Positions 26,736-46,978 of a DNA stretch of 64,000 nt are shown piece after piece. Within the stretch, counting starts at the first letter, position 1. Each line of letters opens with the position of its first letter. The position numbers were made by a program, and so were the translations under genes. This DNA comes from Meiothermus sp. GTDB lineage: Bacteria > Deinococcota > Deinococci > Deinococcales > Thermaceae. The stretch spans positions 2,334,041-2,398,040 of the forward strand of contig NZ_BPIK01000001.1 of the NCBI RefSeq assembly GCF_026004075.1, in the 5' to 3' direction. The notes beneath the pieces were generated by a model. It made no database searches and was not told where the DNA came from. It saw nothing but the letters and a program-made list of their open reading frames with translations.

Positions 26736-27263
26736 ATGCACAACCTCTTCAATGACGTTCGCAGCTTAGAGCAGGAAATCAAAGCATATCTCGTCCATGT
26801 CCACAGCGCCAAAACCCTGGCGAGTTCCGACAACATCATCCTTGAGAACGGAGCCCAGCACCTCCAACGCCTCCTGGAGGAGGTCACTGATTATGACCCA
26901 GACCTGAGCAAGCCCCTTGAGTCTCTCCAACAACGTTTCACGAACCTTAAACGGCGGCTAGACCCACTGCTCCCCTCCGGCGAAGTTGTGCGCGTACAGG
27001 TTACAGCCAATCCTCCGTCCCCGATTCCTGATCCGGAAGCCAAGATTTACAAGACTGAACAAGGTTGGTGGCTTGAGCGCACCGGCGAGCGCACCCTGTA
27101 TCGGGACCTTGGAACCCTCGCTAACGCCGTGGGTATGGTATCCACCCTCACCGACGATCTAGATCTCTGGCGTGCAAGCCTCTTTGGCAACACCTTCACT
27201 ATCTCTAAGGCGCGACCCTTCTCCGGCTTCCGTGTTTCGCTAACCCTTCCCGATGACCGCTGA
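26736..27263 (+). CDS. Unknown protein at the head of the helicase operon
   Basis: This 175-aa soluble protein has a helical N-terminal half (NDVRSLEQEIKAYLVHVHSA, LQQRFTNLKRRLDPLL) and a beta-rich C-terminal half (ARPFSGFRVSLTLPDD). No family is recognised. It lies 95 bp before the helicase-HAD-PRTase gene on the same strand and is likely part of the system. No ribosome site precedes the ATG; leaderless translation is possible. Confidence 0.6.
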   Translation: MHNLFNDVRSLEQEIKAYLVHVHSAKTLASSDNIILENGAQHLQRLLEEVTDYDPDLSKPLESLQQRFTNLKRRLDPLLPSGEVVRVQVTANPPSPIPDPEAKIYKTEQGWWLERTGERTLYRDLGTLANAVGMVSTLTDDLDLWRASLFGNTFTISKARPFSGFRVSLTLPDDR

Positions 27264-27358
27264 ACCTCCCTCAAGCCTATCATTCTTACCGCTCGCGCAG
27301 CCTACAGGTGCAACATCTGCACCTACCTACCCTCTGAGTTGGGGGAGGCGGATCCAGC

Positions 27359-30300
27359 ATGGATAAAGGACGTGAGGATCTACCGGAGACCCCTATGCAT
27401 CAGTGGCAGTACCTTATCTACGATGAAAAAGCTCAGGGCTTCCTTAACCCAATCTCAGGCCAACGCGTGCCATCTGAGGGAGCCTTTCCACATGACACGG
27501 TAGTCGTCTGGGACGGCACTACAGCCTTTCCGGTGTGGTTGGTTCCCACTGATGCACTCCCACCTGGGCTGCCAAACACCTGGTGCACGGCGGTTGCACA
27601 AGCACGGACGGTAGCAGAGTTGCAACGTGCGGTGGTATCCCTTGCTCCGGCCCAGGCCGAGGAAGTACTGCGCACCCTACCGGACGAACTCATCCACGCC
27701 TGGACTGGTGAGGCGTGGCCTCGAACCCTGGCCGAGTTGTTGTACCAGATGAGTCTCGATCGCTACTGCCAGCGGCTGAGAGAGCGGGGGGTCGAATTGT
27801 GCCAAATACCTGCGATCTCGGATGAGCCGCTGAGTCTCGACCAGGCCGAGGTGCTCAACCCCCGGCCACAGCTAAGGCCCGGCCAGGTCGTCCCTCTTGA
27901 TGCTCTCGGCCTCGACGAGCATCTGGCCCGGGCGCTGGCAGCTGCAGGCGCTAAGGAAGGTCTCTTCACTCACCAGGCACTGTCACTGGAATTCCTGCGC
28001 GCCACCCGTCACGAGCCATTCGACCTCGTGATTACCACCCCCACTGCCTCAGGCAAGACTCTGGCCTTCGCCCCGGGCATCCTCGAAGACCTGTTGCAGC
28101 GGAATAACACTGCGCTGTTTATCTACCCGCTGCGTGCACTCACTACCGACCAATACGACAAGCTCACGCGGATATGTAAGGGGCTGCCACTCAAGCTGCG
28201 CCCCTTCTTCGGTAGCATCAGCCTCGAGGAACTACTCCAGGACGGGCTTCCCCACGTTGTAGTGGCTACCCCCGATAAGCTCAACCACTATCTCGACCGC
28301 CCGGAACTGGCCGGGTTCTTTAGCCAGATCCGTTACATCGTCCTTGATGAAGCCCACGCTTACCGCGGCTACTTCGGCATAAATATGGCTCTGTTTCTGC
28401 GACGACTCATGGCGCTGGTGCACAGCGACGTGCGGTTGGTACTGTCAACTGCCACCCTTGACAACACCGCCGACTTCGTGCGTCGCCTGACCGGGCGTAA
28501 TCGCTTCCGCGTGGTGGGTGCGTCAGGGGCGCCGGTTCACGCACGCTTTTTCTACCGTGGTGTCGCAAAAAACGTGCCCAGCCTCATCCATGTTGTCCAG
28601 CGTGAGAGGCGCAAGGGAATCGCCTTCGTGGAAAGCCGGGCTGAGACCCGGCGTCTGGCAGAGACCTACCGCCGCCAGCGTGGCACGCAAGTACACCCTC
28701 TCTTCAGTGGCCACCGGGACTACGCCAACGTCCTGCATCAGTTGCGCCAGGGCAATGAGTCGATGTTCGTCTTTTCTACGACCACACTAGAGGCTGGTAT
28801 TGACATTGGTGACCTCCAGCACGTCGCTATCCTGGGGTTCCCTGGTAGCCGCAACAGCTTCAAGCAAATGGCTGGACGGGCCGGGCGCTCAGGGCCGGCG
28901 CACGTGGTCTTCATCCCACGTACTGGCCGTCTCGGTGTAGCGGCAGACGAGTACTATTCTCGCCTTGATAACCTGAAACGGCTTGTAGAAGCCCAGGCCG
29001 ATCCGGTATATATCAACCCCGCCAACCCGGTTTTGCTACGGCAGCACCTACAGCGCATGCGTTGGGAGGCACATCGCATGGGGCTGCGAGGTGGCGAGGA
29101 ACTGCTCGAGCAACTCCTGAGTCCAGCAGCCGTGCCCGAGACGGTGAGGAAGGAGCTCAAACGGAAGTTCGCCCCGCTACTTACAGAGCCGCTTGCAAGG
29201 GTCGAAGCGCCGCCGTTGCGGTCGATGCCGGGCCTGACGTACCTGGTGATCAGGCTAGGCGAGGGGGCTCCGATCCAGGGTATCGGCGAGCTAACGCTGG
29301 AGGCGGAGACGACCCCGGAGTGGATGCTTGGGGAGTTGCGGCAGGAGGCGGCTCATCGGGAGTGGGCGCTGGGCCTGGTGTTCCCACATCAGGGCCGCTA
29401 CTACCGCAGCATCGATTGGACGCGCGCCCGCGTTACCCGGAACCAGCGCACTGAGGAGGCCGTGCTGGTATGGGTCGAGGACGTCACCGACAGCCTGATG
29501 GATCCTGAGGATTACAACCGGGCGTACTACGGCGCCAAGCAGGTGGATCAGTCCGACTTCAAGCAGGTGAAGCATTACCACAGTCCGTGGCTTGTCGTCT
29601 ACCCTCGGCTCGAGGAGGTCGAAGCCCGCACAGCTATAGGTTCGGTTATCGCAGAAGCAGGACGGGGGCGGGTACGGGTAGGCCTGGAGTTGGTTGTCAA
29701 GCGCCTCACTAAGACCGTGCAATTCCGCTGCCCGTCACTGCGAAGCACTCGGGGAATCAGAGGGATCCATGGTGTTGAGGAGTGGGTAGTGGAAGACTGC
29801 GACGGGCGGAGAGTGCTCTTGGATCCGCTGGAGAAGCGAGAACTGCTCAAAAGCGGAAGCGTGGTGGTGCCGGAGTCCGCGCGAGACGGAGAGGAGCCGA
29901 TACAGGGGCGAGGGTACGTCCTGCAGAGCTATTCCAAACGCCAGGCCAGGGTGAGTACTCATGCCTTCAACTTTGTGCTACCTGGTACCTGCTCGTGCGG
30001 GGAGGAGACGGAGCCACACTATGGCTGGAAAACTGGGTTCGAGAACGTCCCGGACACCTGGAAGAATCACCCGGTGTTCTCGCCTCTCGCTCGCGAATAC
30101 GAGACCGATCTCGGCCAGATCCGCTTCAGCGACGGCTCAACAGCGGCGTACTGGGCCTTGAGCAATGCACTGGCCAAGGCCATTCCCGACGTACTCGAAA
30201 CCGACCTCTCCGACATAGGCTTCGCCTTGCAGGCCCCGCGGCACGAGCTGGTATTCACCGCTTACGACGCTGTTGAGGGCGGCATCGGGGTTGCCACCCA

Positions 30301-31735
30301 GTTGCCTGCCAAGCTGCCGGAGATCCTGGCGGAGGCCCGACGGCTGCTGGAGCTGAGCCTGCGCTGCGACTGCCAGGGTCAGGGGTGCTTCGGCTGCATC
30401 TTGCCTTTGCGCGAACTCAGGCTTCCCCAGGACATCCCTGCGACCAGCGGCGCGGTAGAAGCGCCCCCGGCCGAGCAGGCGCGGCTGCTTCTGGAGGAGA
30501 CCCGTCCGTACAAGCCCGAGCCCAATACCACGGCTGCAGCACACCTGCTACGCAACCTGCTCGAGCCACCCTCCCGGCCAGACACCAACACCACCCTTCT
30601 GCCCAAACTCACAGAATACCCTGTCTTTCGGCGACTGATTTTCGTTCTCGACAGCCTGCTGCTCGACAGCTCCAGCGTCTCCAAAGCGCAGCGTCTACGT
30701 GAAGATCCCGACCTGCTGGTCGAAAATTTGCGCCCGATCCCCCGCGTCATGGAGATTTTGGAGGAACTCCTGGGCGGCCGGGTCGAGGTGGTGCTGGTCA
30801 GCAACAACTCAATGCGCTACGTCGAGACTGCCTTAAAGCGGCACTTCCCCGCGAGTGTGGCAGCGAGGCTCCTGGGTAGCGCTGTGGCGTCGGCCAACAA
30901 ACCAAGCACCGGTCGGCTGCAACCGCTGATTGAGGATCTGAACCCGCAAGAGGTGCTTCTGGTAGGAGACCGGCTAGAGGACGTGCTGACAGCACGACGG
31001 CTGGGGATCGTCTCCGCTCTGGCGACCTGGAGTGCAGCGGACGCAGCCCACGCCCTCAACGCAGGGCCAGATCTTATCTTCTCTGCTCCAGAAGACCTCC
31101 TCTACGCACTGGGCGACTACCGGGCTTACCTGCACCCCCTGGAGCAGGAGGGCGTCCCAGCCGAAGTAATCGCGGCCCCGCTGCGACTGAGCCGGGCCGG
31201 GCGGGTTTGGAGTGTCCTCGGGCGCTACCTCCCTGAGCGGCCCAGGAGCAGGCGAGCCAACGACCTCCTAAGCAATGCACGTTACCAGATCCTCGATTTC
31301 AAGCGCTCTGGCAAGCGTGTTCGTGCAGTTGCAGATTACCTCGTGCGGCGTTTTCCGGATTTACCGGTGGCCTATGTGCCTTCACGACAGCCCGTCCAGG
31401 CCGGATTGGATGCCCTGGCCGAGGAACTCGAAGCCCGTGGACATCCCGTGCTGAGGGTGCTGCAGTGGCAACGGGTGCCTCCCCTCCGCCAGCATGACGC
31501 TGGAGGGGAGGCGGAGCGGCGCGCCAACGTGGCCGGAGCCTTGCGGGTGGCCGATCCCGCCGCCGTGCGCGGGCTACGCTTACTTCTGCTCGATGATCTG
31601 ATCAGCAGCGGCCAGACCCTCATCGAGGCCGATCGTGCCCTGGTCGAGGCGGGGGCCAGACCCGAGGCGCTGGCTCTGGCCTACAGCCTGTGGGAGCGTG
31701 ACCGGGCGGCCGGCCCGGAGGAGGAGATGGCGTGA
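27359..31735 (+). CDS. YprA-like helicase fused to degenerate HAD and phosphoribosyltransferase domains
   Basis: The protein is 1458 aa. After about 200 unknown residues comes a superfamily 2 helicase: TPTASGKT at 227-234, VLDEAHAYRG near 325, and STTTLEAGIDIGDLQ with QMAGRAGRSG. A DUF1998/MZB region supplies Zn ligands CSCGEE (about 878) and CDCQGQGCFGC (about 1002). From about 1089 a HAD-like domain follows in which the nucleophile Asp is Val (FVLDSLLLD) while VGDRLEDVLTARRLG is kept. A type I phosphoribosyltransferase closes the protein (PRPP loop LLLLDDLISSGQT, about 1408-1420). The next gene overlaps by GTGA. Confidence 0.85.
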   Translation: MDKGREDLPETPMHQWQYLIYDEKAQGFLNPISGQRVPSEGAFPHDTVVVWDGTTAFPVWLVPTDALPPGLPNTWCTAVAQARTVAELQRAVVSLAPAQAEEVLRTLPDELIHAWTGEAWPRTLAELLYQMSLDRYCQRLRERGVELCQIPAISDEPLSLDQAEVLNPRPQLRPGQVVPLDALGLDEHLARALAAAGAKEGLFTHQALSLEFLRATRHEPFDLVITTPTASGKTLAFAPGILEDLLQRNNTALFIYPLRALTTDQYDKLTRICKGLPLKLRPFFGSISLEELLQDGLPHVVVATPDKLNHYLDRPELAGFFSQIRYIVLDEAHAYRGYFGINMALFLRRLMALVHSDVRLVLSTATLDNTADFVRRLTGRNRFRVVGASGAPVHARFFYRGVAKNVPSLIHVVQRERRKGIAFVESRAETRRLAETYRRQRGTQVHPLFSGHRDYANVLHQLRQGNESMFVFSTTTLEAGIDIGDLQHVAILGFPGSRNSFKQMAGRAGRSGPAHVVFIPRTGRLGVAADEYYSRLDNLKRLVEAQADPVYINPANPVLLRQHLQRMRWEAHRMGLRGGEELLEQLLSPAAVPETVRKELKRKFAPLLTEPLARVEAPPLRSMPGLTYLVIRLGEGAPIQGIGELTLEAETTPEWMLGELRQEAAHREWALGLVFPHQGRYYRSIDWTRARVTRNQRTEEAVLVWVEDVTDSLMDPEDYNRAYYGAKQVDQSDFKQVKHYHSPWLVVYPRLEEVEARTAIGSVIAEAGRGRVRVGLELVVKRLTKTVQFRCPSLRSTRGIRGIHGVEEWVVEDCDGRRVLLDPLEKRELLKSGSVVVPESARDGEEPIQGRGYVLQSYSKRQARVSTHAFNFVLPGTCSCGEETEPHYGWKTGFENVPDTWKNHPVFSPLAREYETDLGQIRFSDGSTAAYWALSNALAKAIPDVLETDLSDIGFALQAPRHELVFTAYDAVEGGIGVATQLPAKLPEILAEARRLLELSLRCDCQGQGCFGCILPLRELRLPQDIPATSGAVEAPPAEQARLLLEETRPYKPEPNTTAAAHLLRNLLEPPSRPDTNTTLLPKLTEYPVFRRLIFVLDSLLLDSSSVSKAQRLREDPDLLVENLRPIPRVMEILEELLGGRVEVVLVSNNSMRYVETALKRHFPASVAARLLGSAVASANKPSTGRLQPLIEDLNPQEVLLVGDRLEDVLTARRLGIVSALATWSAADAAHALNAGPDLIFSAPEDLLYALGDYRAYLHPLEQEGVPAEVIAAPLRLSRAGRVWSVLGRYLPERPRSRRANDLLSNARYQILDFKRSGKRVRAVADYLVRRFPDLPVAYVPSRQPVQAGLDALAEELEARGHPVLRVLQWQRVPPLRQHDAGGEAERRANVAGALRVADPAAVRGLRLLLLDDLISSGQTLIEADRALVEAGARPEALALAYSLWERDRAAGPEEEMA

Positions 31736-34700
31736 GGATTGACCGCCTTGCCTATCTGGTCGGCTGGGATCCCAAGGGTTGGCCCCACCACAACCCGTTG
31801 CAAGGAGTACCTTACTTCTTGCAGCAAGCCCTGCTCGTACTTGCCGAAGCAGAGGGGCTGCAGTTGGATTGGGTTGAGGGTGATCTGCGCACCGCCCAAT
31901 TACCGGAGTACGCGGACGCGTTGGAACTGTGGCCTGCCGAAGCCTACAGCCGCTTCTCTCTTCTTGACCCAATGGCTCCAGAGCGCCAGGGTGCTTTCGG
32001 CAGGCTTTTGCTCCCCTTTTTCGAGCGAGCGATGCCCGATTCCGCGGCGCTAGATGCACCAAAGCCCGGCCCAGAGCACTGGCGCCTGGGCGGCGCGCCG
32101 GTTACCGTCGATGCTCTAGAGGCCCTACAAGCCTCATCGCGCTGGACCCTGGTTCAGGCAAAACGGCAAGGGATAGCCGTGCGGAGCGGTGATCCGGCCT
32201 GGGGACGCTGGCTGGTGCTGGGACCGGCAGCGCTGCGGCTGTGGTCGGCTGCCTGGCTGGCCCGGCTGGGCACAGGGGAATCGGGCGAGTTGCGGGTGCG
32301 GATTCGCGGCGACCAGCCTCTACCGGTGCTCGCACTCCTGGACAGCCTGGAATTGCTGGAAGTGGTGCGGCGGCTTTACGGCCTTAAGCAGCGATTGCCG
32401 CGAGTCCGGCTGGAGGCCGATGGGCTGGGAGAAGCGTCGCAGCGGGCACTCCGGGCCTACCTGGGCGACCCCGAGGGCCAGCTTAGACGCTTGCTGCTGG
32501 CGGAGGTGGAGTTCGGATCCGTGAGTGAGGTGGACGTGCTCATCGACGACCCCCAAGACCCACTCTTGCTGGCGGATTGGCAGCCGGACGAGGTTCTGGA
32601 GGCCGCTCGGGGGTTAATTCAGGATCCGGCGGGCATTGACCCGGGCTACCACATCGTCGATCCGGCGCCGGAGGTGCTCGACCACCTGTTCAGCCGGTTT
32701 TTCCGCCACCACCGCCTGAGACCGGAGCAGGCCGAGGCCGTGCGGCGGGTGCTCGCTGGCGAGAGTCTGCTGGTGCTGCTGCCAACGGGCTACGGCAAAT
32801 CAGCAATTTATCAGCTAGCTGCCCTGATCCAGCCGGGTACTGCCCTGGTGGTCTCTCCGCTGGTCTCACTCATTCTTGATCAGGTTGACCACCTCTACCG
32901 CGACGGGATCACCGGGGTGGGCTTCATGAGTGGACGCAAGCACGCTGCAGGAACCGCAGAGACCACGTTGGAGCACCTTCGCAATGGCCGCTACCGTCTT
33001 TTCTACATCGCTCCTGAGCGCCTCGACCTGGCCAACTTCCGGCGGGAGCTGGGGGAGCTCATCCGGGGCCACCGCTTCTCTCTAATAGCCGTTGACGAGG
33101 CCCACTGTGTGTCAGAGTGGGGGCACGATTTCCGCACCTCTTACCTCCATCTCAAGGGTCTACGTCAGTACATAGAGCAGCAAGGAGTGACCGAGCGTGT
33201 ACCGATGCTGGCCCTCACCGCCACTGCCTCACCGGTGGTGCGTGCAGATATCCTGCGTCTGCTGGGCATCAGTCCAGACAGTGTGGTGCAGAGCCGCAGT
33301 AGCGACCGGCCCGAGCTTAGCTACAGCGTCCACGTCGTCGATGGCCGCCAGGGCTTCGCTGGACGACTGCAAGCACTGGACGAGGTGCTGACCCGGGTCG
33401 CGCCTACCGTGTTGGGGGCAGGGAGCGAGGGGTTGCTCGAGCGCGACTCCCGCGGCCGCCACCGCCACGGCGCAGTGGTTTTCGCCCCCTTTGCCAACGC
33501 TCACAGCCGTGCCTTTTTCGCCAGCAACGCAGCGGCGGTGGCAGAGCACCTCCGGCGCAACAGGGTGCTGCCAGAGGGAGCGGTAGGCATCCACTCCAAC
33601 TCTGCCCCGGGCCACTGCCCGCGCTGTGGCTCTACCCGTTACTACAGCGACTACGGCCGTTATCGCTGCGCTGAGGCGGACTGCGGGTTCGTTGGGAAAA
33701 GGGACGACTTCACCAGCCCCAGCGATTGGGACGAGCATCTGCTAGAGGTTCAGGCCCAATTCCTCGACAACCGCCTGCCGGTGCTGGTCTCGACCAAAGG
33801 CTTCGGGATGGGTATCGACAAGCCGAACATACGCCTGGTGGTGCACTACGTGATGTCAGGCAGCCTGGAGGGCTACTACCAGGAGGCTGGCCGGGCTGGA
33901 CGTGACCGCGCGCACGCCCACGTTGCGCTGGTCACAGTTCCTCCGGATCCCACCTGCGCCGAGCAGCACCTGGGCGACCGGGCTATCTTCGGACTGGGAG
34001 CGGACGACCCCCTACCGCTCCCCTGTCTGGAACGCGACAGGCGGGGTTTCCCAACGTTACGGTGTCCCTTCGGCTTGAAGGAGCTTTGCGACGTGGGCCA
34101 GCAGGCTTATTTCATCAACCAGAATTTCCCCGGTGCCCGGGATGAACTAACCCAACTTACCGAGGCCTACAACAGGGCGCTGACCGGGAGGCTGCTGGTG
34201 GAGTCGGCCGGGGCTGGTGACAGCAAACCGGTGGAGAAGGCCCTCTCCCGCCTGCGAGTGTTGGAGGTGCTTCACACCTATACCCGCCAGAGGAGCCACG
34301 CCTACCGAGCGACGCTCAATCAGGACTGGACCTGGGCTCGCGGCGTCGCCGCTCTGGCTGACTACGTGCGCGGCTACGGCGAAGCCACGGGCACCCCGGA
34401 CGCGGTGCTGATCGAAGTCGAAGAACTGGCCCGCTCCGAGGGAAACCAGGCCGAGTTCGTGCAGCGAGCCGGGAAGATCCTCATCGAGGCGCTCTATACC
34501 ACGATCCGGGCCATGCGGCTAGCAGGGCTGCGCAACCTCTACCACTATGCAGCCCTGCCGGCGGGCAGTTGTCGGCGCGTATATCTTCGGCGGGCCTTCG
34601 AGCTACGCCTGCCACAGGACTATAGCTGCGGTTTCTGTGACACCTGCGTACCGGACATGAAATTCGGGCGTGAGCGAGCTCTGGTTCCCGAGGAGGCAGC

Positions 34701-35277
34701 GCGCGAGCGGATCCTGGCCGAGGGTCTTGAGAACGTGCTTACAGGCTACAACCTCACGGCGCTGAGGACATACGCCCGCGAAGTGGTCGAGGCGGGATTC
34801 GTGGGCGCTGTGCGCGGCCGGGCGGAGTATCTGCTCGAGCAACGACCCAACGACCTGGCGGTGCTGTTTCTGGCTGCCCTGTGCGCGGGCCTCGAGGGCG
34901 AGAGGGCCACCGCCAAGGTGCTGACCGAGCGTGCTCTGGACGTGATGCTGCGCGCACGGATGGGCTTGACGAACCAGCTGGCCTTCGTGCTAGCCCTGGG
35001 AGAGTGGGTGCCGAGCCTCGCTGACGACCTAGCAGGGGATCCCCAGGGGGTTCTGGGACGCAACCACCCCCGCCTCACCCTGCTTGAGACCCTCCGGCAG
35101 CTTGACCCTGCTCGTGCAGCGCACGTTGAACGTGCCTGGGCGCTTGAGGGACTGGTGGAGGTTGCCGAGCGCCTGAGCAAGTTGCTGCCTGCAGAAGTGC
35201 TTAAGGCTTTCACCACTGCTGTTGAGCACGTCACGCCCCCACATAGAGATAGAGGTATAGGAGGAATGAATGGCTGA
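31732..35277 (+). CDS. RecQ-like helicase with novel N-terminus and zinc-ribbon insert
   Basis: The protein is 1181 aa. The first 320 residues match nothing I recognise. A RecQ core follows: LLPTGYGKSAIYQ (about 347), AVDEAHCVSEWGHDFR (about 454), GFGMGIDKPN (about 692) and YYQEAGRAGRDRAH (about 716). A zinc ribbon (CPRCGSTRYYSDYG with RCAEADCGF) is inserted near 628-652, between the two helicase lobes. CGFCDTC (about 965) is the RecQ zinc site remnant. The C-terminal 200 residues are helical. GTG start overlaps the previous stop. Confidence 0.85.
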   Translation: MRIDRLAYLVGWDPKGWPHHNPLQGVPYFLQQALLVLAEAEGLQLDWVEGDLRTAQLPEYADALELWPAEAYSRFSLLDPMAPERQGAFGRLLLPFFERAMPDSAALDAPKPGPEHWRLGGAPVTVDALEALQASSRWTLVQAKRQGIAVRSGDPAWGRWLVLGPAALRLWSAAWLARLGTGESGELRVRIRGDQPLPVLALLDSLELLEVVRRLYGLKQRLPRVRLEADGLGEASQRALRAYLGDPEGQLRRLLLAEVEFGSVSEVDVLIDDPQDPLLLADWQPDEVLEAARGLIQDPAGIDPGYHIVDPAPEVLDHLFSRFFRHHRLRPEQAEAVRRVLAGESLLVLLPTGYGKSAIYQLAALIQPGTALVVSPLVSLILDQVDHLYRDGITGVGFMSGRKHAAGTAETTLEHLRNGRYRLFYIAPERLDLANFRRELGELIRGHRFSLIAVDEAHCVSEWGHDFRTSYLHLKGLRQYIEQQGVTERVPMLALTATASPVVRADILRLLGISPDSVVQSRSSDRPELSYSVHVVDGRQGFAGRLQALDEVLTRVAPTVLGAGSEGLLERDSRGRHRHGAVVFAPFANAHSRAFFASNAAAVAEHLRRNRVLPEGAVGIHSNSAPGHCPRCGSTRYYSDYGRYRCAEADCGFVGKRDDFTSPSDWDEHLLEVQAQFLDNRLPVLVSTKGFGMGIDKPNIRLVVHYVMSGSLEGYYQEAGRAGRDRAHAHVALVTVPPDPTCAEQHLGDRAIFGLGADDPLPLPCLERDRRGFPTLRCPFGLKELCDVGQQAYFINQNFPGARDELTQLTEAYNRALTGRLLVESAGAGDSKPVEKALSRLRVLEVLHTYTRQRSHAYRATLNQDWTWARGVAALADYVRGYGEATGTPDAVLIEVEELARSEGNQAEFVQRAGKILIEALYTTIRAMRLAGLRNLYHYAALPAGSCRRVYLRRAFELRLPQDYSCGFCDTCVPDMKFGRERALVPEEAARERILAEGLENVLTGYNLTALRTYAREVVEAGFVGAVRGRAEYLLEQRPNDLAVLFLAALCAGLEGERATAKVLTERALDVMLRARMGLTNQLAFVLALGEWVPSLADDLAGDPQGVLGRNHPRLTLLETLRQLDPARAAHVERAWALEGLVEVAERLSKLLPAEVLKAFTTAVEHVTPPHRDRGIGGMNG

Positions 35278-36217
35278 CTACCTGACCGACGAATGGATCA
35301 CACAGCAGCAACAACGACTGGACGCCGCCCACGAACAGGTGGCTCATGCCATCGCCTTGTTCGGGCGTGCTGGGGACTCTCTGCCCCGGCTGGAGGCAGC
35401 TCTGCAGGCTTCTGAGGAGCACGTATCCCGCTTGAGGATGGAGTTCGAGCAGGCTCGTGCCGGATTCCACAGCGAGGTGAATGGGTTGCTGAAGCGCCTC
35501 AAGGAGGAAGGCAAAGTCCAGATAGAGCGCCTGGGCCAGCACCTGAGCGAGACACTCAAGGATCTGGAGGGGTTGCGCGATCAGCGCCTGCTCTGGGAAC
35601 TGCGTGAGCGAGTTGAGTCACTCAAACAGCAGTGGTCCGCCACCCAGGAAGAGTGGCTTGAAGCCCTCCGCGAGGAAGTAGCGGCAGTTGAGGCTCGAGT
35701 ACAGGAACCGCTGCGAGACCTTGACCAGAATCTGCGCGGGGGGCTGGAGGCGCTTCAGAGTGAGGTATTCGGGGCCCAGACAGCCCTGCGCCAGGAGTTG
35801 AGCAGCCAGCTTGACCAGCTTCGGGCGTTGTTGGGACACATGAACTCGCAGATAAGTGCCGTTTCCCAGAGCCTGGAGCAGGAGGTGAGGGAACGGCAGG
35901 CCCTCGGCCTCGCCCTCGATACCGAGCGATCGGCCCGCGAAGCGCTGGGTCAGGAGTTGCACACGCTGCAGCAGACCCACGCCTTGCTGCAAGAGGAGTT
36001 CGGCGTACAGTCGCGGAGGCAGCAGGAGCTCGAGCGGCAGGTGCAGGAACTGGCTCAGACCCTGGAGCAGATGGGCGAAACCATCTCGAATACTCAGCAA
36101 AACAATGCAACACGGCTTGATCGACTCGAACGATACATACGCTCGCTGCTGGCCTGGTTCAGCTCTGTTCGTGGGCTCGCACGTCTATTTAAAAATCCCC
36201 AGGGGGTCGAGGGCTGA
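35270..36217 (+). CDS. Coiled-coil protein of the helicase operon
   Basis: The 315-aa protein is almost wholly heptad-rich helix (LKRLKEEGKVQIERLGQHL, VQEPLRDLDQNLRGGLEALQ, LEQEVRERQALGLALDTERS), ending in a short hydrophobic LLAWFSSVRGLARLF. It overlaps RecQ by 8 bp and the UvrD gene by 1 bp. It may be a scaffold, or a membrane tether through the end. No catalytic motif is seen. Confidence 0.75.
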   Translation: MADYLTDEWITQQQQRLDAAHEQVAHAIALFGRAGDSLPRLEAALQASEEHVSRLRMEFEQARAGFHSEVNGLLKRLKEEGKVQIERLGQHLSETLKDLEGLRDQRLLWELRERVESLKQQWSATQEEWLEALREEVAAVEARVQEPLRDLDQNLRGGLEALQSEVFGAQTALRQELSSQLDQLRALLGHMNSQISAVSQSLEQEVRERQALGLALDTERSAREALGQELHTLQQTHALLQEEFGVQSRRQQELERQVQELAQTLEQMGETISNTQQNNATRLDRLERYIRSLLAWFSSVRGLARLFKNPQGVEG

Positions 36218-38208
36218 TGCAGCGGCACACGATCTTCACTATCACCGCTCTGAGGGAGTTGCAAGCGGTTCCCGCTCGTGAGCGAGATGCCCTGTTGAGC
36301 GACATCGACCTACTGGCAAGGGATCCACGCTCGGGGCGGCTCAACCTGAGTCCACTACATAAGTACCCTGGTTTTCATCGATTGAAAGTGGGTAACTGGC
36401 GGGTCTTCTGCCGCCTGGATGAGTACGTGGAGATACATGCGGTTCGCCGGCGTAGCGAGGACACCTACAGTCTGCCCTTTAACCCCCGCACGCTGAACAC
36501 GCCCAGCGAGCTCACTACGCCACACCCCGATGATTGGGACGAGGAGGACGAAAAGCTCGCCGCAGGAGGCCCGCCGAAGGAGCAGGTCTTCCCGCTACGC
36601 CCCGAGCAGCTCGAGGGCTGGGGCGTACCACGACTTTACTTCCCTCAGTTCTTGAGCTGCACTAGCGACGACGACTTGCTTGCACTCGATAGCGTGGTGC
36701 CTGCCGAGTGGGTTGTGCACGTGATCAGCATGCTATATCAGCCTGGCCTGGATCAAACGCAGTCCGAGGCGCAGTACGTGGTGCACTCGCGGCAGGAACT
36801 GGAGGACTACCTCAGCGGCCGCCTCAGCGACCTACTGCTCCGCCTTGATCCCGAGCAAATTCACGCCTCGGAGTGGCGGCTGGAGGGTCCAACCCTGGTG
36901 CGCGGCGGTCCCGGCACCGGAAAGACCGTTGTGGCCCTGTACCGGGCCCTGGCCTACGCCCAGCACCGGCCCGGCTCGCGGATCCTGTTCGCCACCTACA
37001 CCACCACCCTCGCCCACTACGCCGAGCAGCTGCTCTCACGCCTGATCGAAGAGCGGGGCCTGGACGCTGAGGTCGAGGTTAGCTGGGTGGATAGGCTAGT
37101 GCGGCAGAACCTGAAGGCCGCCTCCTGGAAAATTGCTGGCGACTCAGAGTTGCTCGACGCCGTGCGGGTCGTGCTGGGCGAGCTACGGGATCCGTTCCTG
37201 CAGGGTTTGGGCCCGCGCTATCTGCGCGATGAGTTCCATGACGTAATTCAGGCCTGGGATCTCGATCACAGGGAGTACCTGAGCTTCGCACGTCATGGGC
37301 GGCAGCTCCCGTTATACCCCGAGGAGCGAGAAAAGGTGTGGGTAGCCTACGACCGCTGGCGCAGGTTGCTCGATCAGCGCCGGCTGCTGAGTTGGAACCG
37401 GGCCCGGTCGGCAGCACGAGCCAGTGCACAACCGAACTACGATGCGGTAATAGTTGACGAGGCACAGGATCTCCCGCCCGTCGCCCTGCGCTTCCTACTG
37501 CGCCTCGTCAAGCACCCGAAGGGCTTCTATCTCACCGCCGACGCCAACCAGAGCCTCTACCAGCAGGGGTTCTCTTTCAAGGCGGTGGACCAGGCGCTCG
37601 ACATGAGGGGCCGGAGCCTTCTGCTGCGGCGCAATTACCGCTCGACACGGCCTATTCATGCAGCGCTGGCAGCGCTGGCCCGCCACCCGTCGCTGGAGTC
37701 GGAGGACCTGCCTGAACCGGCCCACCGCGATGGCCCCAGGCCGCTGCTGGTGGGGATCGACCAGGGCACGGAGGCCGGCACGCTCCGCGAGCTGGTCTAC
37801 CGGCTGTGCCGGCAGCTGCGGGTGCCACTGAGCGGGGTGGGCATCCTTTGCCCGAGCGAAGCCCGCGCGCGCGAGGTGGTCGCCGCGCTCAACCGGCTGG
37901 ACATGCCCGCGGCGTGGTCGAAGGGGGAGGACCTCGAGCTCGACCAGCCGGCGGTCAAGGCGCTGACGCTGCACTCGGCCAAGGGCCTGGAGTTCCCGGT
38001 GGTCGTGGTGCTCGACGTCAACCAAGGCACGCTCCCCCGCCAGGCCGCGGTACCTGCGGAGGAGGTGGAGGCCTACGAGGCCCGTGACCGCCGGCTGTTC
38101 TACGTCGCCTGCTCGCGGGCCATGCAAGCCCTGGTGGTCGCCTACGACCCCCGCCGGCCGAGCCCCTTCGTGCGCGAGCTGCCGCCGGAGCTCTGGGAGC
38201 AGCGATAG
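36217..38208 (+). CDS. RelE-like domain fused to UvrD/Rep-type helicase
   Basis: The protein is 663 aa. Residues 1-90 resemble a RelE/ParE toxin fold (FTITALRELQAVPARERDAL, FHRLKVGNWRVFCRLDEYVE, IHAVRRRSEDTY). A superfamily 1 helicase follows: GGPGTGKTVVALYRAL (about 230), VIVDEAQDLPP (about 413), LLRRNYRSTRPIH, and LHSAKGLEFPVVVV. It is the last gene of the operon. The RelE part may be an RNA-cleaving or ribosome-sensing module; whether its active residues are kept could not be judged. Confidence 0.82.
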   Translation: MQRHTIFTITALRELQAVPARERDALLSDIDLLARDPRSGRLNLSPLHKYPGFHRLKVGNWRVFCRLDEYVEIHAVRRRSEDTYSLPFNPRTLNTPSELTTPHPDDWDEEDEKLAAGGPPKEQVFPLRPEQLEGWGVPRLYFPQFLSCTSDDDLLALDSVVPAEWVVHVISMLYQPGLDQTQSEAQYVVHSRQELEDYLSGRLSDLLLRLDPEQIHASEWRLEGPTLVRGGPGTGKTVVALYRALAYAQHRPGSRILFATYTTTLAHYAEQLLSRLIEERGLDAEVEVSWVDRLVRQNLKAASWKIAGDSELLDAVRVVLGELRDPFLQGLGPRYLRDEFHDVIQAWDLDHREYLSFARHGRQLPLYPEEREKVWVAYDRWRRLLDQRRLLSWNRARSAARASAQPNYDAVIVDEAQDLPPVALRFLLRLVKHPKGFYLTADANQSLYQQGFSFKAVDQALDMRGRSLLLRRNYRSTRPIHAALAALARHPSLESEDLPEPAHRDGPRPLLVGIDQGTEAGTLRELVYRLCRQLRVPLSGVGILCPSEARAREVVAALNRLDMPAAWSKGEDLELDQPAVKALTLHSAKGLEFPVVVVLDVNQGTLPRQAAVPAEEVEAYEARDRRLFYVACSRAMQALVVAYDPRRPSPFVRELPPELWEQR

Positions 38209-39685: not shown

Positions 39686-39774
39686 AGAAGAGACTCTCCG
39701 GAAGAGGAAGATTTTTTTCTCTTCCGGGGAGTCTTCTGTACCAGGGCTCGCTTGGGTGACCGCCAGGAGGTTGC

Positions 39775-39963
39775 TCAGTTCAGGAAGTTCTCCCGCTCCC
39801 ACCTCTCCATCTCGCGACTGCGCCCCAGCAGCTCCCGGCGTAGCCCCAGCAGGAGCCCCACCCGCGCTCCGAAGCGCCAGGCTGCGAGCCACATGGCCCA
39901 GGCCGCCCCCTCCTCCAGGGGGAGTGCGAGTTCAGATTCAACTACGGTAGTCCCAAAGAGCAA
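39775..39963 (-). CDS. Possible 62-aa small protein
   Basis: The frame gives an amphipathic, Leu-rich centre (WLAAWRFGARVGLLLGLRRE) and a charged tail (SREMERWERENFLN). The start is a TTG without a strong ribosome site, so this is a weak call. Confidence 0.3.
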   Translation of the reverse strand: MLFGTTVVESELALPLEEGAAWAMWLAAWRFGARVGLLLGLRRELLGRSREMERWERENFLN

Positions 39964-40026
39964 CTACGGCTGCTCAAATGTTGGCTCAGGGAGGAGGGGT
40001 AATCTAGGGCTTATCTAGGACAGCCC

Positions 40027-40696
40027 CTTTCGCAAAGCCTCCCACAGCGAACTCACTGCCATCGCCTTCTGCATCACTCTCCTGGTCATGAACCTTTACC
40101 GCGGCTACTTTCTCGTTCGAACCGCCTACGCTCACCTCTTTTCCCAAACTCCCCACTACACCTGTCTGGCCCGCTTCTTCAAAAACGCCCATGCCGTCCG
40201 GGCCTTACTGGCCCAACGCCTGATCCAGGCTCAACCCCTCCTACACGTGGTAAACCTCAAATGCCTCTCCCTAGCCCATGGCCACCGTATCCACAGCCTC
40301 AAGCTGCCGGAGGGTGCGGTAGGGGTAGGCCCCTGGGCGCCTTTGCTGGGTTAGGCCTTGATGGCGGTGATGGATGCGCGGGGTACCTTTCATCGCTGGA
40401 CGATCCTACCGGGGAACGCCCGGGAACACTGGGCTTTGGAGCTTTTGGATGGGCTTGCCCCCGTTTTGGGGAACCGAGGGTTTCGCTTTGTACCTGGGGT
40501 ACTGACGCCACCTTACCGGTTGCGGGGAGGGAAGGTGGTTCAGACGGGGTGGCCAGGGTGGATGAGTCGGGTGCGGGGCTGGATAGAGACTCACTTCAGC
40601 GTGCGGGTACGCTCGTTGGATTTGCACCAGATTGAAGCCAGGAGCTACTGGGGCTTGGCGGCCCGGGTGAACCTCATCCCGGTTGATTGTGGCTAG
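40027..40696 (+). pseudogene. Decayed DDE transposase, remnant 1
   Basis: Two frames read TAIAFCITLLVMNLYRGYF ... LARFFKNAHAVRALLAQRL, LAHGHRIHSLKLPEGAVGVG and, after a stop and shift, MAVMDARGTFHRWTILPGNA and LDLHQIEARSYWGLAARVNL. This resembles Thermus-type DDE transposases (family not assigned, IS5/IS982-like). A related remnant is at 60.8-61.4 kb. It is non-functional and abuts the HAD-PRTase gene. Confidence 0.65.
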
Positions 40697-40740
40697 GCGG
40701 TGAGTTTTCCGTAGGTAGAGTGTAATTGGAGGAGCTTGAA

Positions 40741-42054
40741 ATGCCCGTCCTTCTTCACCTTATGTTCGATCTTGACGACACCCTCGTGGCTACCGCGCAC
40801 TTGAAGGACATCCGCGAGAAGCACCTGTCGGATAAGTTCGAGAAAGCCCTTCCCCAACTAAAGCCCTACGTAGGGCTCCTCCCGGCATTGCACTACCTTC
40901 AGGGAAAGGTAAGTTTGAGCGTGGTTACCCGCTCGCCCGGTTGGTACGCCAAGCCAATCCTAAAGCACTGCTTTCCGGACATTCGCTGGAACGCGGTCGT
41001 GACTTATGAGGATGTGGATCGGCATAAGCCTTATCCGGATGCACTTAAGCAGGCGATGCAGACTGTGGGGGTCACAGAATTTTCCCAGGTTGCTTATATC
41101 GGCGATAGTCGGGACGACATTGAAGCGGCTTACCATGCCGGGGTGCGCCCAGTGCTGGCCACCTGGGGTGGCACTCAGGGCGTAACCAACCAGCTACTGC
41201 CCGAGGTAGTTCTGAACAACCCTACCGCATTGTGCGATCTCCCGACTTCCTACACCCGGTATCTGCACGTCCTTGAGGCCTATCTTGCTGAAAAAGATGA
41301 GAAGTGGAAGGAAGCTGGCAACGTCCAACCCACTCGCATCTCCGTTCCCATTCAGGGCAAAGAAATGGTAGTCTGGGTGCTCGGGCGTTACTTTGCTAAG
41401 GAGGGGGTGACGCTCACACTTCACAACAATCACACGCTATCTCAGCAAATCGAGCGCAAAAAAAGCTCTGGTGTTTTCCCGATTGAAGACAGCTGGGTAT
41501 ATGCGATCGCGGCGGTGCTCGGACACATGCAGGTAAAGTACGGGGCTGACTTGGTAACGGTGGTCCCAGCTAAGCCTGGGCGCGACCGCCGTTTAGAGCG
41601 GCTGCTTGAGGTCTACGATAGGAGCACCTATCCCTTCGTAAAACTTGCATCCGCTCCTGATCTCCTAGCTTTTAGTGAAGATGCCCAAACAGTCAAGCAT
41701 GCAACCTCGCCTGAGCGCTACCAGATGGTTAAAGAGGCCATCCGAGCCAAGAACAACCAGCTGGTGGTGGGCGAAAAGGTAGTGCTACTTGACGACGTAT
41801 TAACCACTGGGAGCACGCTGCAGGCCGCCAAGGAAACGCTGATCGAGGCGGGAGCCAGTTCGGTCTACCCCATCGCCCTAGCCAAGAACATCAGCAGGTA
41901 CAGTTTTGAGGTCACCCCAGAGCACAAACTGTGCTCCAAGTGCGGGCGGTTGATGGTTTACCGCAAAAACCGCACCACCGGAAATGTATTTTGGGGGTGT
42001 ACCGGATACCCCGAACATTGCCGGCACACTGAGGACATCCCAATAGCTCGCTAG
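40741..42054 (+). CDS. HAD phosphatase - phosphoribosyltransferase - zinc-finger protein
   Basis: The protein is 437 aa from the ATG at 40741, which follows GGAGGAGC. The HAD domain keeps both Asp of the active site (FDLDDTL, Asp10/Asp12) and YIGDSRDDIEAAYHAG. The middle is a type I phosphoribosyltransferase (VVLLDDVLTTGST near 349, with VVPAKPGRDRR upstream). The C-terminus is a topoisomerase-like zinc finger (CSKCGRLMVYRK ... CTGYPEHC). It is homologous to the C-terminus of the helicase fusion at 27.4 kb, and a DprA homologue follows 43 bp later. Confidence 0.8.
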   Translation: MPVLLHLMFDLDDTLVATAHLKDIREKHLSDKFEKALPQLKPYVGLLPALHYLQGKVSLSVVTRSPGWYAKPILKHCFPDIRWNAVVTYEDVDRHKPYPDALKQAMQTVGVTEFSQVAYIGDSRDDIEAAYHAGVRPVLATWGGTQGVTNQLLPEVVLNNPTALCDLPTSYTRYLHVLEAYLAEKDEKWKEAGNVQPTRISVPIQGKEMVVWVLGRYFAKEGVTLTLHNNHTLSQQIERKKSSGVFPIEDSWVYAIAAVLGHMQVKYGADLVTVVPAKPGRDRRLERLLEVYDRSTYPFVKLASAPDLLAFSEDAQTVKHATSPERYQMVKEAIRAKNNQLVVGEKVVLLDDVLTTGSTLQAAKETLIEAGASSVYPIALAKNISRYSFEVTPEHKLCSKCGRLMVYRKNRTTGNVFWGCTGYPEHCRHTEDIPIAR

Positions 42055-42097
42055 TAACGCTTACTCCATAAGGGCTGATGTTTGGTATGGTGAGGGC

Positions 42098-43081
42098 ATG
42101 CCTGAGCCCAGCGAAGTGACGCGGAAGCTGCTCACCCTGAGCAAATTGAGGGGAGTAGGCGCTTCGAGCCTCCTCAAGCTGGCCCAAGCGGAGGGGTTTG
42201 TCAAGTGGGACTATGACGAGATCGCGTCTAGGTTCCCCAGCATAGGTCGTGCCCTCACGCAAGAGAACCTCAACCAGGCGCAAGCACTCGCCCAGCGCGA
42301 CCTCGCCGCCTGCAAGGCGGACGGCTCGGAGATCATCTCCGTGCTGGATCCCCAGTACCCCCCGCTGCTCCGGCAAACCCCGGACCGACCGGCGCTGCTC
42401 TACGTCAAGGGCAATCTCAAGCCTACCCATCACCGGGCTGTCGCGGTTGTCGGTACCAGAGAACCCACCGAACACGGCAAGGTCATCACCCAGCGCATAA
42501 CGACCTACCTTGGTCAGCAGGGCTGGAGCATAGTGAGTGGCTTGGCCTTGGGGGTGGATGGTATCGCCCACCAGGCAGCTCTAGAAGTGGGAGGGCACAC
42601 CGTGGCCATACTGGCTCACGGGTTGGACACCATCACCCCGAAGTCCCACACCGTGCTGGCCAAGTCCATCCTTGAGGCGGGTGGAGCTTGGGTTAGCGAA
42701 TACGCATATGGAATCCCCCCTTTTGCCCCGCAATACGTCAAACGGGACCGCATTCAGGCTGGTTTAGCCCGAGGGGTGGTATTGATCCAGACCGGACTTG
42801 AAGGAGGAAGCCTCCATGCTAGCCGGGCGGCTTTACGGTATGGGAGGGTGCTAGCTGTCCCCGCTCCAACCAAAACAGACATTGCTGCGGGGGAGGAGAA
42901 GGTACAGGGAGTGCTCAAAATTCTCCAAGGCTCACGTCAGGAAGTGGCCCGCTACTTGCAATGTAATCCGGCAGACCTCGACCGTATCCTAGTAATTCGA
43001 TCCCGCGAGCAGTACCCTCAATTAGAGGATGCCCTCAACGCTATAGGAGAGGGGGTTAATCCACAAAAAGCCTTATTCTAG
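42098..43081 (+). CDS. DprA/Smf-like Rossmann protein
   Basis: This 327-aa protein has an N-terminal helix-hairpin-like part (LSKLRGVGASSLLKLAQ) and the DprA Rossmann domain (AVAVVGTREPTEHGKVI, SGLALGVDGIAHQAALEVGG, AILAHGLDTITPKSH). The usual RNR...GSL segment has become RDRIQAGLARGVVLIQTGLE followed by GGSLHASRAA. TATGGT lies 7 nt before the ATG, so the start is probably leaderless. Pairing with a phosphoribosyltransferase rather than a competence operon suggests a defence role. Confidence 0.82.
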   Translation: MPEPSEVTRKLLTLSKLRGVGASSLLKLAQAEGFVKWDYDEIASRFPSIGRALTQENLNQAQALAQRDLAACKADGSEIISVLDPQYPPLLRQTPDRPALLYVKGNLKPTHHRAVAVVGTREPTEHGKVITQRITTYLGQQGWSIVSGLALGVDGIAHQAALEVGGHTVAILAHGLDTITPKSHTVLAKSILEAGGAWVSEYAYGIPPFAPQYVKRDRIQAGLARGVVLIQTGLEGGSLHASRAALRYGRVLAVPAPTKTDIAAGEEKVQGVLKILQGSRQEVARYLQCNPADLDRILVIRSREQYPQLEDALNAIGEGVNPQKALF

Positions 43082-43089
43082 GCTCATTA

Positions 43090-43560
43090 GCGAGGACAGC
43101 CCGATTCAAACCGACGACTGCCCCCCAAGGGACGGCTGAGGGAGTTTGCTCCAGCCTTTCCCACCCGAGTTATTCGCCTGGGGGAGGCTGACTGGGGGGT
43201 TCAGCCTCAGACCATCATGCTCCGGGGTGACTTGGGCCGTACCCTCAAGGGCACCACCCGAGTGGGCATGATCGGTGGCGCGGGGCTCATCGGGGTAGGC
43301 GGTACGGTGACCAGTACCAAAGGCAGCATCCAGGTGCTCCTCGCCATACCCCCCAGGGGCAAGACCCCATCTCGCTCCTCGGCCCGCCTCCCACCGAGCG
43401 GATCGTCCTACCAAATCAGCGGCTACAGCGTGGCCATCGAGTGCACCGTTCCCGGTAACTTCACTGGTAACGACACCGTCCGCATCGAGACCTGCTTCGG
43501 CAACCTGGAGGTGCGGGTAGGCTTAGCCGTTCGGCTCGATGCACTCAAGACCTGGCGCCG
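43090..43560 (+). pseudogene. Remnant of a beta-rich protein
   Basis: An open frame without a start reads FAPAFPTRVIRLGEADWGVQ and later YSVAIECTVPGNFTGNDTVR and CFGNLEVRVGLAVRLDA, the look of an Ig-like repeat C-terminus as in large kinase-associated proteins. The 43082-43707 gap otherwise has nothing. The evidence is weak. Confidence 0.3.
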
Positions 43561-43707
43561 CTGTCGCTGTCAACTATGCTGCACGAAGCGGTGGTGTGTG
43601 GGACCATTTGTCTTTTTAGGGATTAGCGGGTGCAGTCCAACCACCATCGGGCCGAAACTTCGCACAAGCCCCCTACAGCGAACTTTCCCGGTTAGACTGA
43701 GGGACAA

Positions 43708-44451
43708 ATGGAGAGCGCAACCCCCCTAAAGCTGGCTGAAGTGCGTGGTAAAAAAGCAAGGGCGAACTCTGAACTCGAGGCGGTGATTCGGGAGACGGCC
43801 AGGCTCTGGCGGAAGGCTCACCTGGACTACGACGGGAGCAAGTATGTGGTGGAGCGGGTGCGCCGCCTGATGGAGCTCTCTCCACCTACCAAGCGCCGCC
43901 GGGTGGTGGAAAGGCTTTCCCCGGAAGAGGTCGAGCGTCTGCTCCAGGCGGCTTACCGCATGAACCCCCGCAAGCCGGTCTTTGGCCTGATGCTCAAGAC
44001 CCTCTTCTACACCGGAGTCCGGGTGAGCGAGTTTGTCCACCTGCGGGCTCAGGACATCCACCTGGACGGGGAGGCCCCCTACATTTACGTCCACAAGGCC
44101 AAGAAGGACTCGGTGCGCTACGTGCCCATCCTGCCCGCCCTGGCTCAGGAGCTTCGGGTGCATCTGGCGGGCCGGACGCGGGGCCACCTCTTCGAGTCCA
44201 ACCGCCACGACCGCTACTCGGCTCGCGCCATCCAGAAGCTCATCCAGCAAGCGGCACAGGTCTCGGGGATTGAGAAGCGGGTCTATCCCCACCTGCTGCG
44301 GCACTCGGTGGCACAAACGCTGCTGGATCGGGGGATGCCCCTCGAGCAGCTTCAGAAGTTCCTGGGGCACCAGGATCCCAAGACCACCCAGATCTACGCG
44401 GAGAGTTCGCTCGAGCAGGTTGCGGAAAGTTACCGGCGGGTGTGGGGTTGA
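43708..44451 (+). CDS. Tyrosine recombinase (XerD-like integrase)
   Basis: The protein is 247 aa. All catalytic residues are visible: Arg105 (YTGVRVSE), Lys132/133 (HKAKKDSVR), His195 and Arg198 (PHLLRHS), His221 (FLGHQD) and Tyr230 (TTQIYAES). The N-terminal core-binding part is short (about 65 residues), so it may lack full arm or core binding. It probably integrates a mobile element. An IS5 copy begins 8 bp after its stop. Confidence 0.9.
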   Translation: MESATPLKLAEVRGKKARANSELEAVIRETARLWRKAHLDYDGSKYVVERVRRLMELSPPTKRRRVVERLSPEEVERLLQAAYRMNPRKPVFGLMLKTLFYTGVRVSEFVHLRAQDIHLDGEAPYIYVHKAKKDSVRYVPILPALAQELRVHLAGRTRGHLFESNRHDRYSARAIQKLIQQAAQVSGIEKRVYPHLLRHSVAQTLLDRGMPLEQLQKFLGHQDPKTTQIYAESSLEQVAESYRRVWG

Positions 44452-45381: not shown

Positions 45382-45588
45382 ATGGCCAACGTCGGTACTG
45401 CAATCGAGTGGACGGATGCCACCTGGAACCCTACCACCGGATGCAACAAGGTCAGTCCAGGGTGCAAACACTGCTATGCCGAGCGCATAACTGAGCGCTT
45501 CTCACAGCATTTCCCCCAGGGATTTCGCTTCACCCTGCACCCCGATTGGCTGATGGAGCCTTACCATATGCTCCGCCCCCCTCACCGG
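45382..45588 (+). pseudogene. DUF5131 (phage Gp37/Gp68) 5' fragment
   Basis: The frame MANVGTAIEWTDATWNPTTG, then CNKVSPGCKHCYAERITERF (C-x6-C-x2-C cluster), is the N-terminus of Gp37/Gp68 family proteins. Similarity stops near DWLMEPYHML and the frame then wanders to 45717. It is truncated, probably where the restriction gene was joined. Confidence 0.7.
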
Positions 45589-45703
45589 AAAAGCCACGCA
45601 ACCTCTACAGGGTGTAATGCGCGATCAGCATTGAGGCCATTGCCTAAGGGCTTTTACACGCCCCTTGACGAAGCCCCTCGTTGGGTTACACTTACACCTC
45701 AGT

Positions 45704-46978
45704 ATGACAGATCATGACCCAATAGAGTCGTTTCTAAGAGATGTGCGGAGAAACTCAGCCCCAGAAAAGGACAGCAAGTGGGAGCTTGATCTTATAAGGC
45801 AATTGGTGAATGAATCTTATAATCTCAAAACCGCTAAGCCGGAGGCCTCACTGGGCCGAATTCTGGCTGCAGCCTTTGATCTTGCAGTATCAGCGGCCTA
45901 CTATAGATACGTAAGTCAAAGGGGGTGGTTTTACTGTCCTTCCCCATCTCCAAGGTTGTACTTTCACTTTACAAATTGTTGTCCTCGGCATGCACTGGAC
46001 AATAGTTTCTACTTTAATAAGTCAAATAAACCAGAGTCTGCGAATATAGGTGAAGTAACCTCGCGAATTCTACGGCGATTTATTAGCGTGCTGTTTGAAA
46101 AAAATAATGTAAAGGCACAGGTTCTAAAGGGGAAGGAACCTATTGACATAGTTATTTTGGAAGATGCCGGTCAAAATCTATTTTTTGGTGAAGTTAAGGC
46201 AGCACCTCTATTGACTCTGCCACTGGCAAAGGACGCAGAGCCGTTTAAGGACGAGGAGGGGAATCTATTGAAGGATCATGATGCTCCAGTCGCTGTTAGC
46301 CCAATCTATAAAACTCCGATAAAGTTATTTGTGCCAAAACGTGATGACAACTCAAAGTGGACTGAACACCTTTTCACCCTTGGTTCTATAGAAAATGAAG
46401 ATGATTCGTTTTGGGGATACCGCTCCCTTCTTTCTCTTTTATCGAGCGATAAAACATTTTTTTCTACATTCTTTGATTTTTGGGACAATGCGTTAACATT
46501 TTATCATCCAAAGCGTAAACAATCTATCTTTTGGCTAACTAATGGATCGGGTGAACCTAATCCCGCACCGCCTCACTGGCCTTCTAGAAAGGGAGGTAAT
46601 GGAAAGAATCCTGAGAGCGTGTCTGATTCTAAGACAAGCGTTGGGATGGATAGGACAGACGATATAAAGAAGGGCATATATCAAATTCTAAAAATTGGAG
46701 TAGAAAACAAACCTTCTAAATCTAAATGGAAGCTTAGACTGGGCATTATATCAAATATCCACGCCGCAAGGCATTTTGAGGAATACTTATCCTCACTTCA
46801 GAATTTGGTATGGACTCTTGATGAAACAGGAAAAGCTCAAAAAGCAAGCGATCTTGATGATAATCACCCACTGTACAACCTATTTGATGGCATAATTACC
46901 TTTACACAGTCGCATATTCGAGACCCTTGGCTAAAGAGTATGTTTGACTTTGAGGCAAAATGGAAGATCCAAAACTAG
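45704..46978 (+). CDS. Probable restriction endonuclease with PD-(D/E)XK motif
   Basis: This 424-aa protein starts at ATG 45704 (MTDHDPIESFLRDVRRN). KEPIDIVILED followed by NLFFGEVKAA (about residues 145-167) is a D...ExK nuclease centre. Base composition is clearly AT-richer than the surroundings (runs of A and T, ATA/AGA codons), so it was acquired. It overlaps the methyltransferase gene by 19 bp, the classic order of a type II restriction-modification pair. Specificity is unknown. Confidence 0.65.
   Translation: MTDHDPIESFLRDVRRNSAPEKDSKWELDLIRQLVNESYNLKTAKPEASLGRILAAAFDLAVSAAYYRYVSQRGWFYCPSPSPRLYFHFTNCCPRHALDNSFYFNKSNKPESANIGEVTSRILRRFISVLFEKNNVKAQVLKGKEPIDIVILEDAGQNLFFGEVKAAPLLTLPLAKDAEPFKDEEGNLLKDHDAPVAVSPIYKTPIKLFVPKRDDNSKWTEHLFTLGSIENEDDSFWGYRSLLSLLSSDKTFFSTFFDFWDNALTFYHPKRKQSIFWLTNGSGEPNPAPPHWPSRKGGNGKNPESVSDSKTSVGMDRTDDIKKGIYQILKIGVENKPSKSKWKLRLGIISNIHAARHFEEYLSSLQNLVWTLDETGKAQKASDLDDNHPLYNLFDGIITFTQSHIRDPWLKSMFDFEAKWKIQN

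Follow-up and report, generated by a model that had tools for sequence, protein, structure and literature searches.

The closest described relatives of the locus analysed here are the ShosTA pairs. A DprA and phosphoribosyltransferase (PRTase) pair of a P2-like phage was reported to protect E. coli from T7 and lambda, and DprA homologues were named as the antitoxins of shosTA (PMC9122126). A review describes ShosT as a phosphoribosyl transferase combined with a pyrophosphatase, whose action upsets purine metabolism, with DNA duplications and filamentation as the outcome; in the same account ShosA binds DNA and counteracts ShosT, and T7 Gp0.7 is the trigger of the system (PMC12593503). Structures of both ShosT and ShosA are present in the PDB. 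In the related PsyrTA/RqlHI system, the toxicity of RqlH depends on the RqlH PRTase (PMC4670107). An initial annotation of the pair described below, which suspected a nucleotide-handling conflict system and could name no experimental precedent, is supported by the apparent fit to this published family; it was right in kind and less novel than thought, as the P2-phage precedent had been published.

The pair lies in a 64,000-nucleotide stretch of the genome of Meiothermus sp. (contig NZ_BPIK01000001.1, positions 2,334,041 to 2,398,040), hereafter the window. Two genes on the same strand, with 43 bp between the stop codon of the first and the start of the second, encode a HAD-PRTase-zinc ribbon protein and a DprA homologue. 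Both had been noted initially, and both reading frames were confirmed by the ORF list and Pfam. The features of the pair are as follows.

40728..40734, + strand: ribosome-binding site GGAGGAG of the toxin gene, read in the sequence
40741..42054, + strand: ShosT-like toxin gene, 437 aa, with HAD-IA hydrolase, PRTase and C4 zinc ribbon (ORF, Pfam, PADLOC, fold search)
40741..41265, + strand: HAD-IA domain, residues about 1-175
41338..41910, + strand: ComF-like PRTase domain, residues about 200-390
41917..42039, + strand: C-terminal zinc ribbon, residues about 393-433
42098..43081, + strand: ShosA-like (DprA-family) antitoxin gene, 327 aa (ORF, Pfam, PADLOC, tree, structure comparison)
42743..42757, + strand: altered loop RDRIQ (RNR[IVL][IV] in housekeeping DprA)
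42803..42820, + strand: altered loop GGSLHA (housekeeping DprAs mostly have SGSLIT or SGALIT)

The toxin gene starts with ATG, 6 bp downstream of the GGAGGAG, and a simple scan gave no promoter-like site. Pfam matches of its product were HAD_2 (5e-17), Pribosyltran (5.5e-8) and Zn_ribbon_Top1 (3.6e-7, which at 30.3 bits is slightly short of the curated cut-off of 32). All HAD-IA motifs are present in the alignment (motif I, DLDDT; motif II, T63; motif III, K96; motif IV, D122/D126), and the PRPP motif of the PRTase part (VVLLDDVLTTGST, residues 347-359) is intact. Profile neighbours of the HAD include phosphoglycolate phosphatases and the pyrophosphatase PpaX, all of them far below cut-offs, and in structure comparison the HAD part was matched to HAD-IA phosphatases with Z of up to 16.6 (3kzx, rmsd 2.6 over 149 residues). 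Judged from its sequence, this phosphatase-like part looks active, with its catalytic residues intact.

The second gene product is of the DprA family (DNA_processg_A, 4.7e-57) and is without the winged-helix domain of DprA. Three DprA homologues are present in the genome. One of the others (L002) is the bona fide housekeeping dprA: it scores above the TIGR00732 equivalog cut-off (225.1 vs 191.15), possesses the winged-helix domain and, by eye, is neighboured by era-like and dus-like genes. The window DprA stays under the same cut-off (182.9), and its loops read RDRIQ/GGSLHA vs RNRIV/SGSLIT in the genome's own housekeeping DprA. The loop alteration noticed at the outset is real, and with a bona fide dprA elsewhere this one is not the housekeeping copy. 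The third homologue (L003) follows a RecQ-PRTase protein, and the matches of the two to PsyrT (1.6e-148) and PsyrA (6.9e-60) identify them as a PsyrTA pair, the toxin gene of which is cut by the start of the locus; it occupies L003 14-2364 (G000:C1 about 2311317-2313667), about 21 kb before the window start, and so shares a region with the ShosTA pair.

DprA being a competence protein, and the PRTase part of the toxin matching the ComF model (2.7e-11), the pair could be taken for a competence module in which a ComF-like PRTase and DprA handle incoming single-stranded DNA. We consider this very improbable. Besides its own dprA, the genome has a separate ComF-like gene elsewhere (N-terminal zinc ribbon and PRTase, 208 aa), and together these rule out a housekeeping or competence copy at this locus; the missing winged helix, the sub-threshold score and a loop alteration common to toxin-linked DprAs all count against it as well. 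Furthermore, of the 111 genomes of the class only this one yielded a free-standing protein matching the toxin along its full length, unlike what would be seen for a competence gene. The remaining long matches to the toxin came from the C-terminal portions of helicase genes, here and in two other genomes, G031 and G025.

Assignment to ShosTA draws on several comparisons. Among PADLOC models, the window DprA matched ShosA at 5.2e-77, a second ShosA model at 9e-28 and PsyrA at 3e-27 (257 bits for ShosA vs 94 for PsyrA). The same ShosA model also matches the housekeeping DprA of this genome (6.6e-55), and its score alone is therefore not decisive. For the toxin, the PRTase part matched ShosT (5e-11) and PsyrT (1.7e-12), the alignment to the ShosT models being weak and confined to that part. 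A Foldseek search of the PDB with the toxin structure model (5 sequences, pLDDT 70, low confidence) placed three ShosT entries on top (8zvd, 8zvc and 8zvb; 2e-13 to 6e-13 over 414-436 columns), with lone HAD phosphatases ranking after them at about 1e-6. Overall TM-scores of the model to solved ShosT were low (0.29-0.33, rmsd about 12), which is consistent with a low-confidence model misplacing its domains, and does not prove the same arrangement. VIA re-alignment of the model gave, among the 50 matches listed, lone HADs or HAD-bearing enzymes only, by which ShosT is not excluded. The DprA model (14 sequences, pLDDT 93) aligned with ShosA of E. coli APEC O1 (8zva) at Z 27.6 and rmsd 3.5 over 279 residues, and was nearer by Z to housekeeping DprAs (3maj, 32.9; 3uqz, 31.1).

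In the tree, the window DprA belongs to a nine-row clade (97/96) composed of eight HAD-linked ShosAs and one orphan, from which 14 housekeeping DprAs and four PsyrAs stand apart; the 14 HAD-linked DprAs taken together do not form one clade (4 changes). A pair in Pseudomonas phage PfAC02a (OR790968) is annotated as ShosT/ShosA, and its toxin matches ours over the full length with 33% identity. In PHROGs, both genes are present as families annotated as of unknown function, with matches spanning most of their length, and single-protein searches of viral contigs gave no matches. An orphan ShosA in another genome, G001 (L134 8053-9036), is 51% identical to the window's ShosA; neither HAD nor PRTase was found within 18 kb of it, and ShosA-toxin pairing is thus not universal.

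The PsyrT model matches the PRTase part of the toxin as well as ShosT does (1.7e-12), which raises the alternative that the pair is a PsyrTA/RqlHI system instead. As a matter of membership this is refuted, although a biochemical end product common to both would still make the pair work like PsyrTA, and we leave next to no weight on it, given that the 437-aa toxin is devoid of a RecQ helicase domain by Pfam, that the DprA favours ShosA by bit score, that PsyrAs form a separate 100/100 clade in the tree, and that a separate PsyrTA pair exists elsewhere in the genome. Gene order, domains, intact motifs and ShosA/ShosT membership by sequence and predicted fold were all observed for the window pair, as were the mobility of its slot and the existence of dprA and ComF-like genes elsewhere. 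For us the analysis settles its identity with a probability of roughly 85%: a toxin-antitoxin system of the ShosTA kind, directed against phages or other invaders.

A survey of the neighbourhoods of DprA homologues, as proposed at the outset, proved informative about the altered loop. DprAs of 90 loci were aligned, these being the best 80 of 582 relatives on genome contigs together with 10 of 10 on viral contigs. Glutamine followed the R-x-R loop in 12 of the 90, and a HAD or PRTase gene lay within 1.5 kb in all 12, a group in which three pairs are near-duplicates and which came from a search pattern that favours ShosA-like sequences; such a neighbour (E below 1e-5) occurred at 0 of the 78 loci without that glutamine. 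Exceptions to a strict rule were also seen, outside the 90 loci as well. L148 has a weak PRTase neighbour (1.7e-4) and no such glutamine. The PsyrAs L003, L008, L014 and L020 have PRTase neighbours with glutamine absent at that position. Phage phiOH2 (L045) has a PRTase neighbour, and no R-x-R loop was found there by script; L073 and L127 have the histidine of the second loop and no HAD or PRTase neighbour; the orphan ShosA of G001 bears both loop marks. As far as these alignments go, the altered loop marks toxin-linked DprAs, with the exceptions named, and its unusual sequence is of use in recognising them.

The pair occupies a variable genomic slot beside a recombinase gene, as listed here.

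39689..43658, no strand: variable slot holding the pair, 3.97 kb; sequence homologous to the related genomes G031 and G025 ends at 39686-39688 and starts again at 43659
43659..43682, no strand: palindrome TTCGC-N14-GCGAA at the right slot edge, a possible recombinase site
43708..44451, + strand: Xer-like tyrosine recombinase gene, 247 aa (Pfam and profile matches)

The slot holds about 130 bp in G025, about 3 kb of other sequence in G031 and the ShosTA pair in this genome, and the same palindrome half-sites with a different spacer are found at the corresponding place in G031. The two genes of the pair have a G+C content of 0.553 and 0.596, lower than the 0.61-0.66 of the operon and recombinase genes. 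Slot variability, the palindrome on the recombinase side and the lower G+C fit a horizontal gain of the pair, and the palindrome just before the Xer-like recombinase gene, at the edge of a slot whose cargo varies among three genomes, is possibly a cassette-capturing site. The two slot edges share no 10-base repeat, direct or inverted. An ORF at 40358-40693, taken by eye for a transposase remnant, had no Pfam match. Downstream of the pair lies a type II restriction-modification pair; where it begins, a DUF5131 gene (45382-45717) is truncated to 111 aa, and an intact copy (263 aa) is located near the corresponding place in G031.

Upstream of the pair, an operon at 26736-38208 encodes a 175-aa protein followed by an MrfA-like helicase (1458 aa) with a decayed HAD and a PRTase at its C-terminus, then a RecQ/DpdF-like helicase (1181 aa), a coiled-coil protein and a ParE-like-UvrD helicase. 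This is probably a defence operon, to which no single PADLOC system was fitted. With helicases on one side and restriction-modification on the other, the setting is one of defence and not a competence locus, in agreement with the initial annotation. As a type III retron effector, the PRTase would adjoin a reverse transcriptase and an ncRNA; among the neighbouring ORFs scanned (ORF list, Pfam, PADLOC) no reverse transcriptase was found.

Since the first operon helicase itself ends in HAD-PRTase, the pair might be an accessory of this large helicase operon (27359-38208), with its DprA restraining the operon's PRTase in trans; on the Deinococcus plasmid pDrdI, four operon orthologues (36%, 44%, 28% and 30% identity) are directly followed by a HAD-DprA fusion. 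The operon is, however, also present in G031 (100% identical over the HAD-PRTase part) and G025 (81%), both of which have one DprA match each, no ShosA- or PsyrA-type DprA and no ShosTA-type pair at the slot. The operon therefore does not need the pair, these two genomes rule out the pair as a necessary part of it, and even a looser accessory role seems to us improbable. We retain the reading of a self-contained ShosTA system.

The state of the HAD domain varies among relatives. All 15 ShosA-linked HADs in the alignment retain DxDxT, among them a stand-alone HAD gene of Neobacillus terrae (L106) and the HAD-DprA fusion on pDrdI (L042/L149), and the motif III lysine aligned in 14 of the 15, L072 being gapped at that position. 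L145 and L146 show a decayed motif I (LLASPSS), as do the helicase-HAD-PRTase proteins of the window and G025 (alignment) and that of Deinococcus (VILELEG, read by eye), and motif IV is decayed in the solved E. coli ShosT (residue alignment). ShosT proteins seem to have the HAD fold in common, and a live HAD, going by these motifs, would be a property of some branches, that of the window pair among them. The zinc ribbon is optional, occurring in 0-2 copies: none in L139 and L048, one in the window toxin and two in L140 and L142.

Placement of the HAD differs too, being fused to the PRTase in the window, separate in Neobacillus and fused to DprA in Deinococcus, where the PRTase resides on the decayed-HAD helicase. 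We tentatively suggest, with the odds leaning against it, that ShosTA-like systems carry a third, mobile catalytic part in the form of a live HAD phosphatase moving between toxin and antitoxin. If true, the live HAD would be more than a part of the toxin and might either set the damage or undo it; the E. coli ShosT on which work has been done to date, its HAD being decayed, would then represent a single branch with different chemistry.

Several further arrangements were seen in the survey. In Neobacillus terrae (L106 3091-5813), PRTase, DprA and HAD are three separate neighbouring genes. A ShosA-like DprA of an actinobacterium (L072 3911-8060) adjoins a 1023-aa protein with HAD and pentapeptide repeats, in which an EDQITTG motif is PRTase-like. 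On a Klebsiella plasmid (L040 5063-7695), DprA is followed by a HAD-PRTase with a C-terminal PvuRts1I-like nuclease domain, possibly a ShosTA variant with a nuclease.

From published work on other ShosTA pairs we carry over, by analogy, the toxicity, the disturbed purine metabolism, the binding of ShosA to DNA and the defence against phages; activity in this organism, its trigger and the roles of the HAD and zinc ribbon are inferred. In such a scheme the HAD-PRTase-zinc ribbon protein, ShosT, would be the toxin: its ComF-like PRTase domain would use PRPP and upset the purine nucleotide pool, so that DNA is damaged and growth stops. The HAD-IA phosphatase fused to it would drive the reaction forward through hydrolysis of pyrophosphate or of the nucleotide formed, and the zinc ribbon may tether the toxin to nucleic acid. 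The DprA paralogue ShosA would bind DNA and either neutralise the toxin or repair its damage until infection tips the balance. The question raised by the locus is what role the intact HAD plays in this ShosT branch, for which the decayed-HAD protein of E. coli may not provide the answer.

Compared with known systems, the pair shares homologous PRTase and DprA domains with ComF-DprA of natural competence, which has its own copies elsewhere in the genome and no HAD; the ComF-like protein has its zinc ribbon at the N-terminus, whereas the window toxin is arranged as HAD-PRTase-C-terminal ribbon. PsyrTA/RqlHI has in common with it a PRTase toxin domain and a DprA-like antitoxin, but its toxin joins a RecQ helicase to the PRTase and its DprA comes from another clade. 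The ShosTA pair of PfAC02a is alike in order and strand, HAD-PRTase-zinc ribbon and then DprA, at 33% and 40% identity, and differs in having two zinc-ribbon copies and in being carried by a filamentous phage, together with Kiwa. E. coli ShosTA (ShosT 8zvb/8zvc/8zvd, ShosA 8zva) likewise has a DprA-family antitoxin adjoining a toxin with HAD-like and PRTase parts; its HAD-like part, however, has a decayed motif IV (YVGRSQED), unlike the window toxin with its intact HAD motifs. The window pair adds an example to a system already described, from a branch whose HAD looks live.
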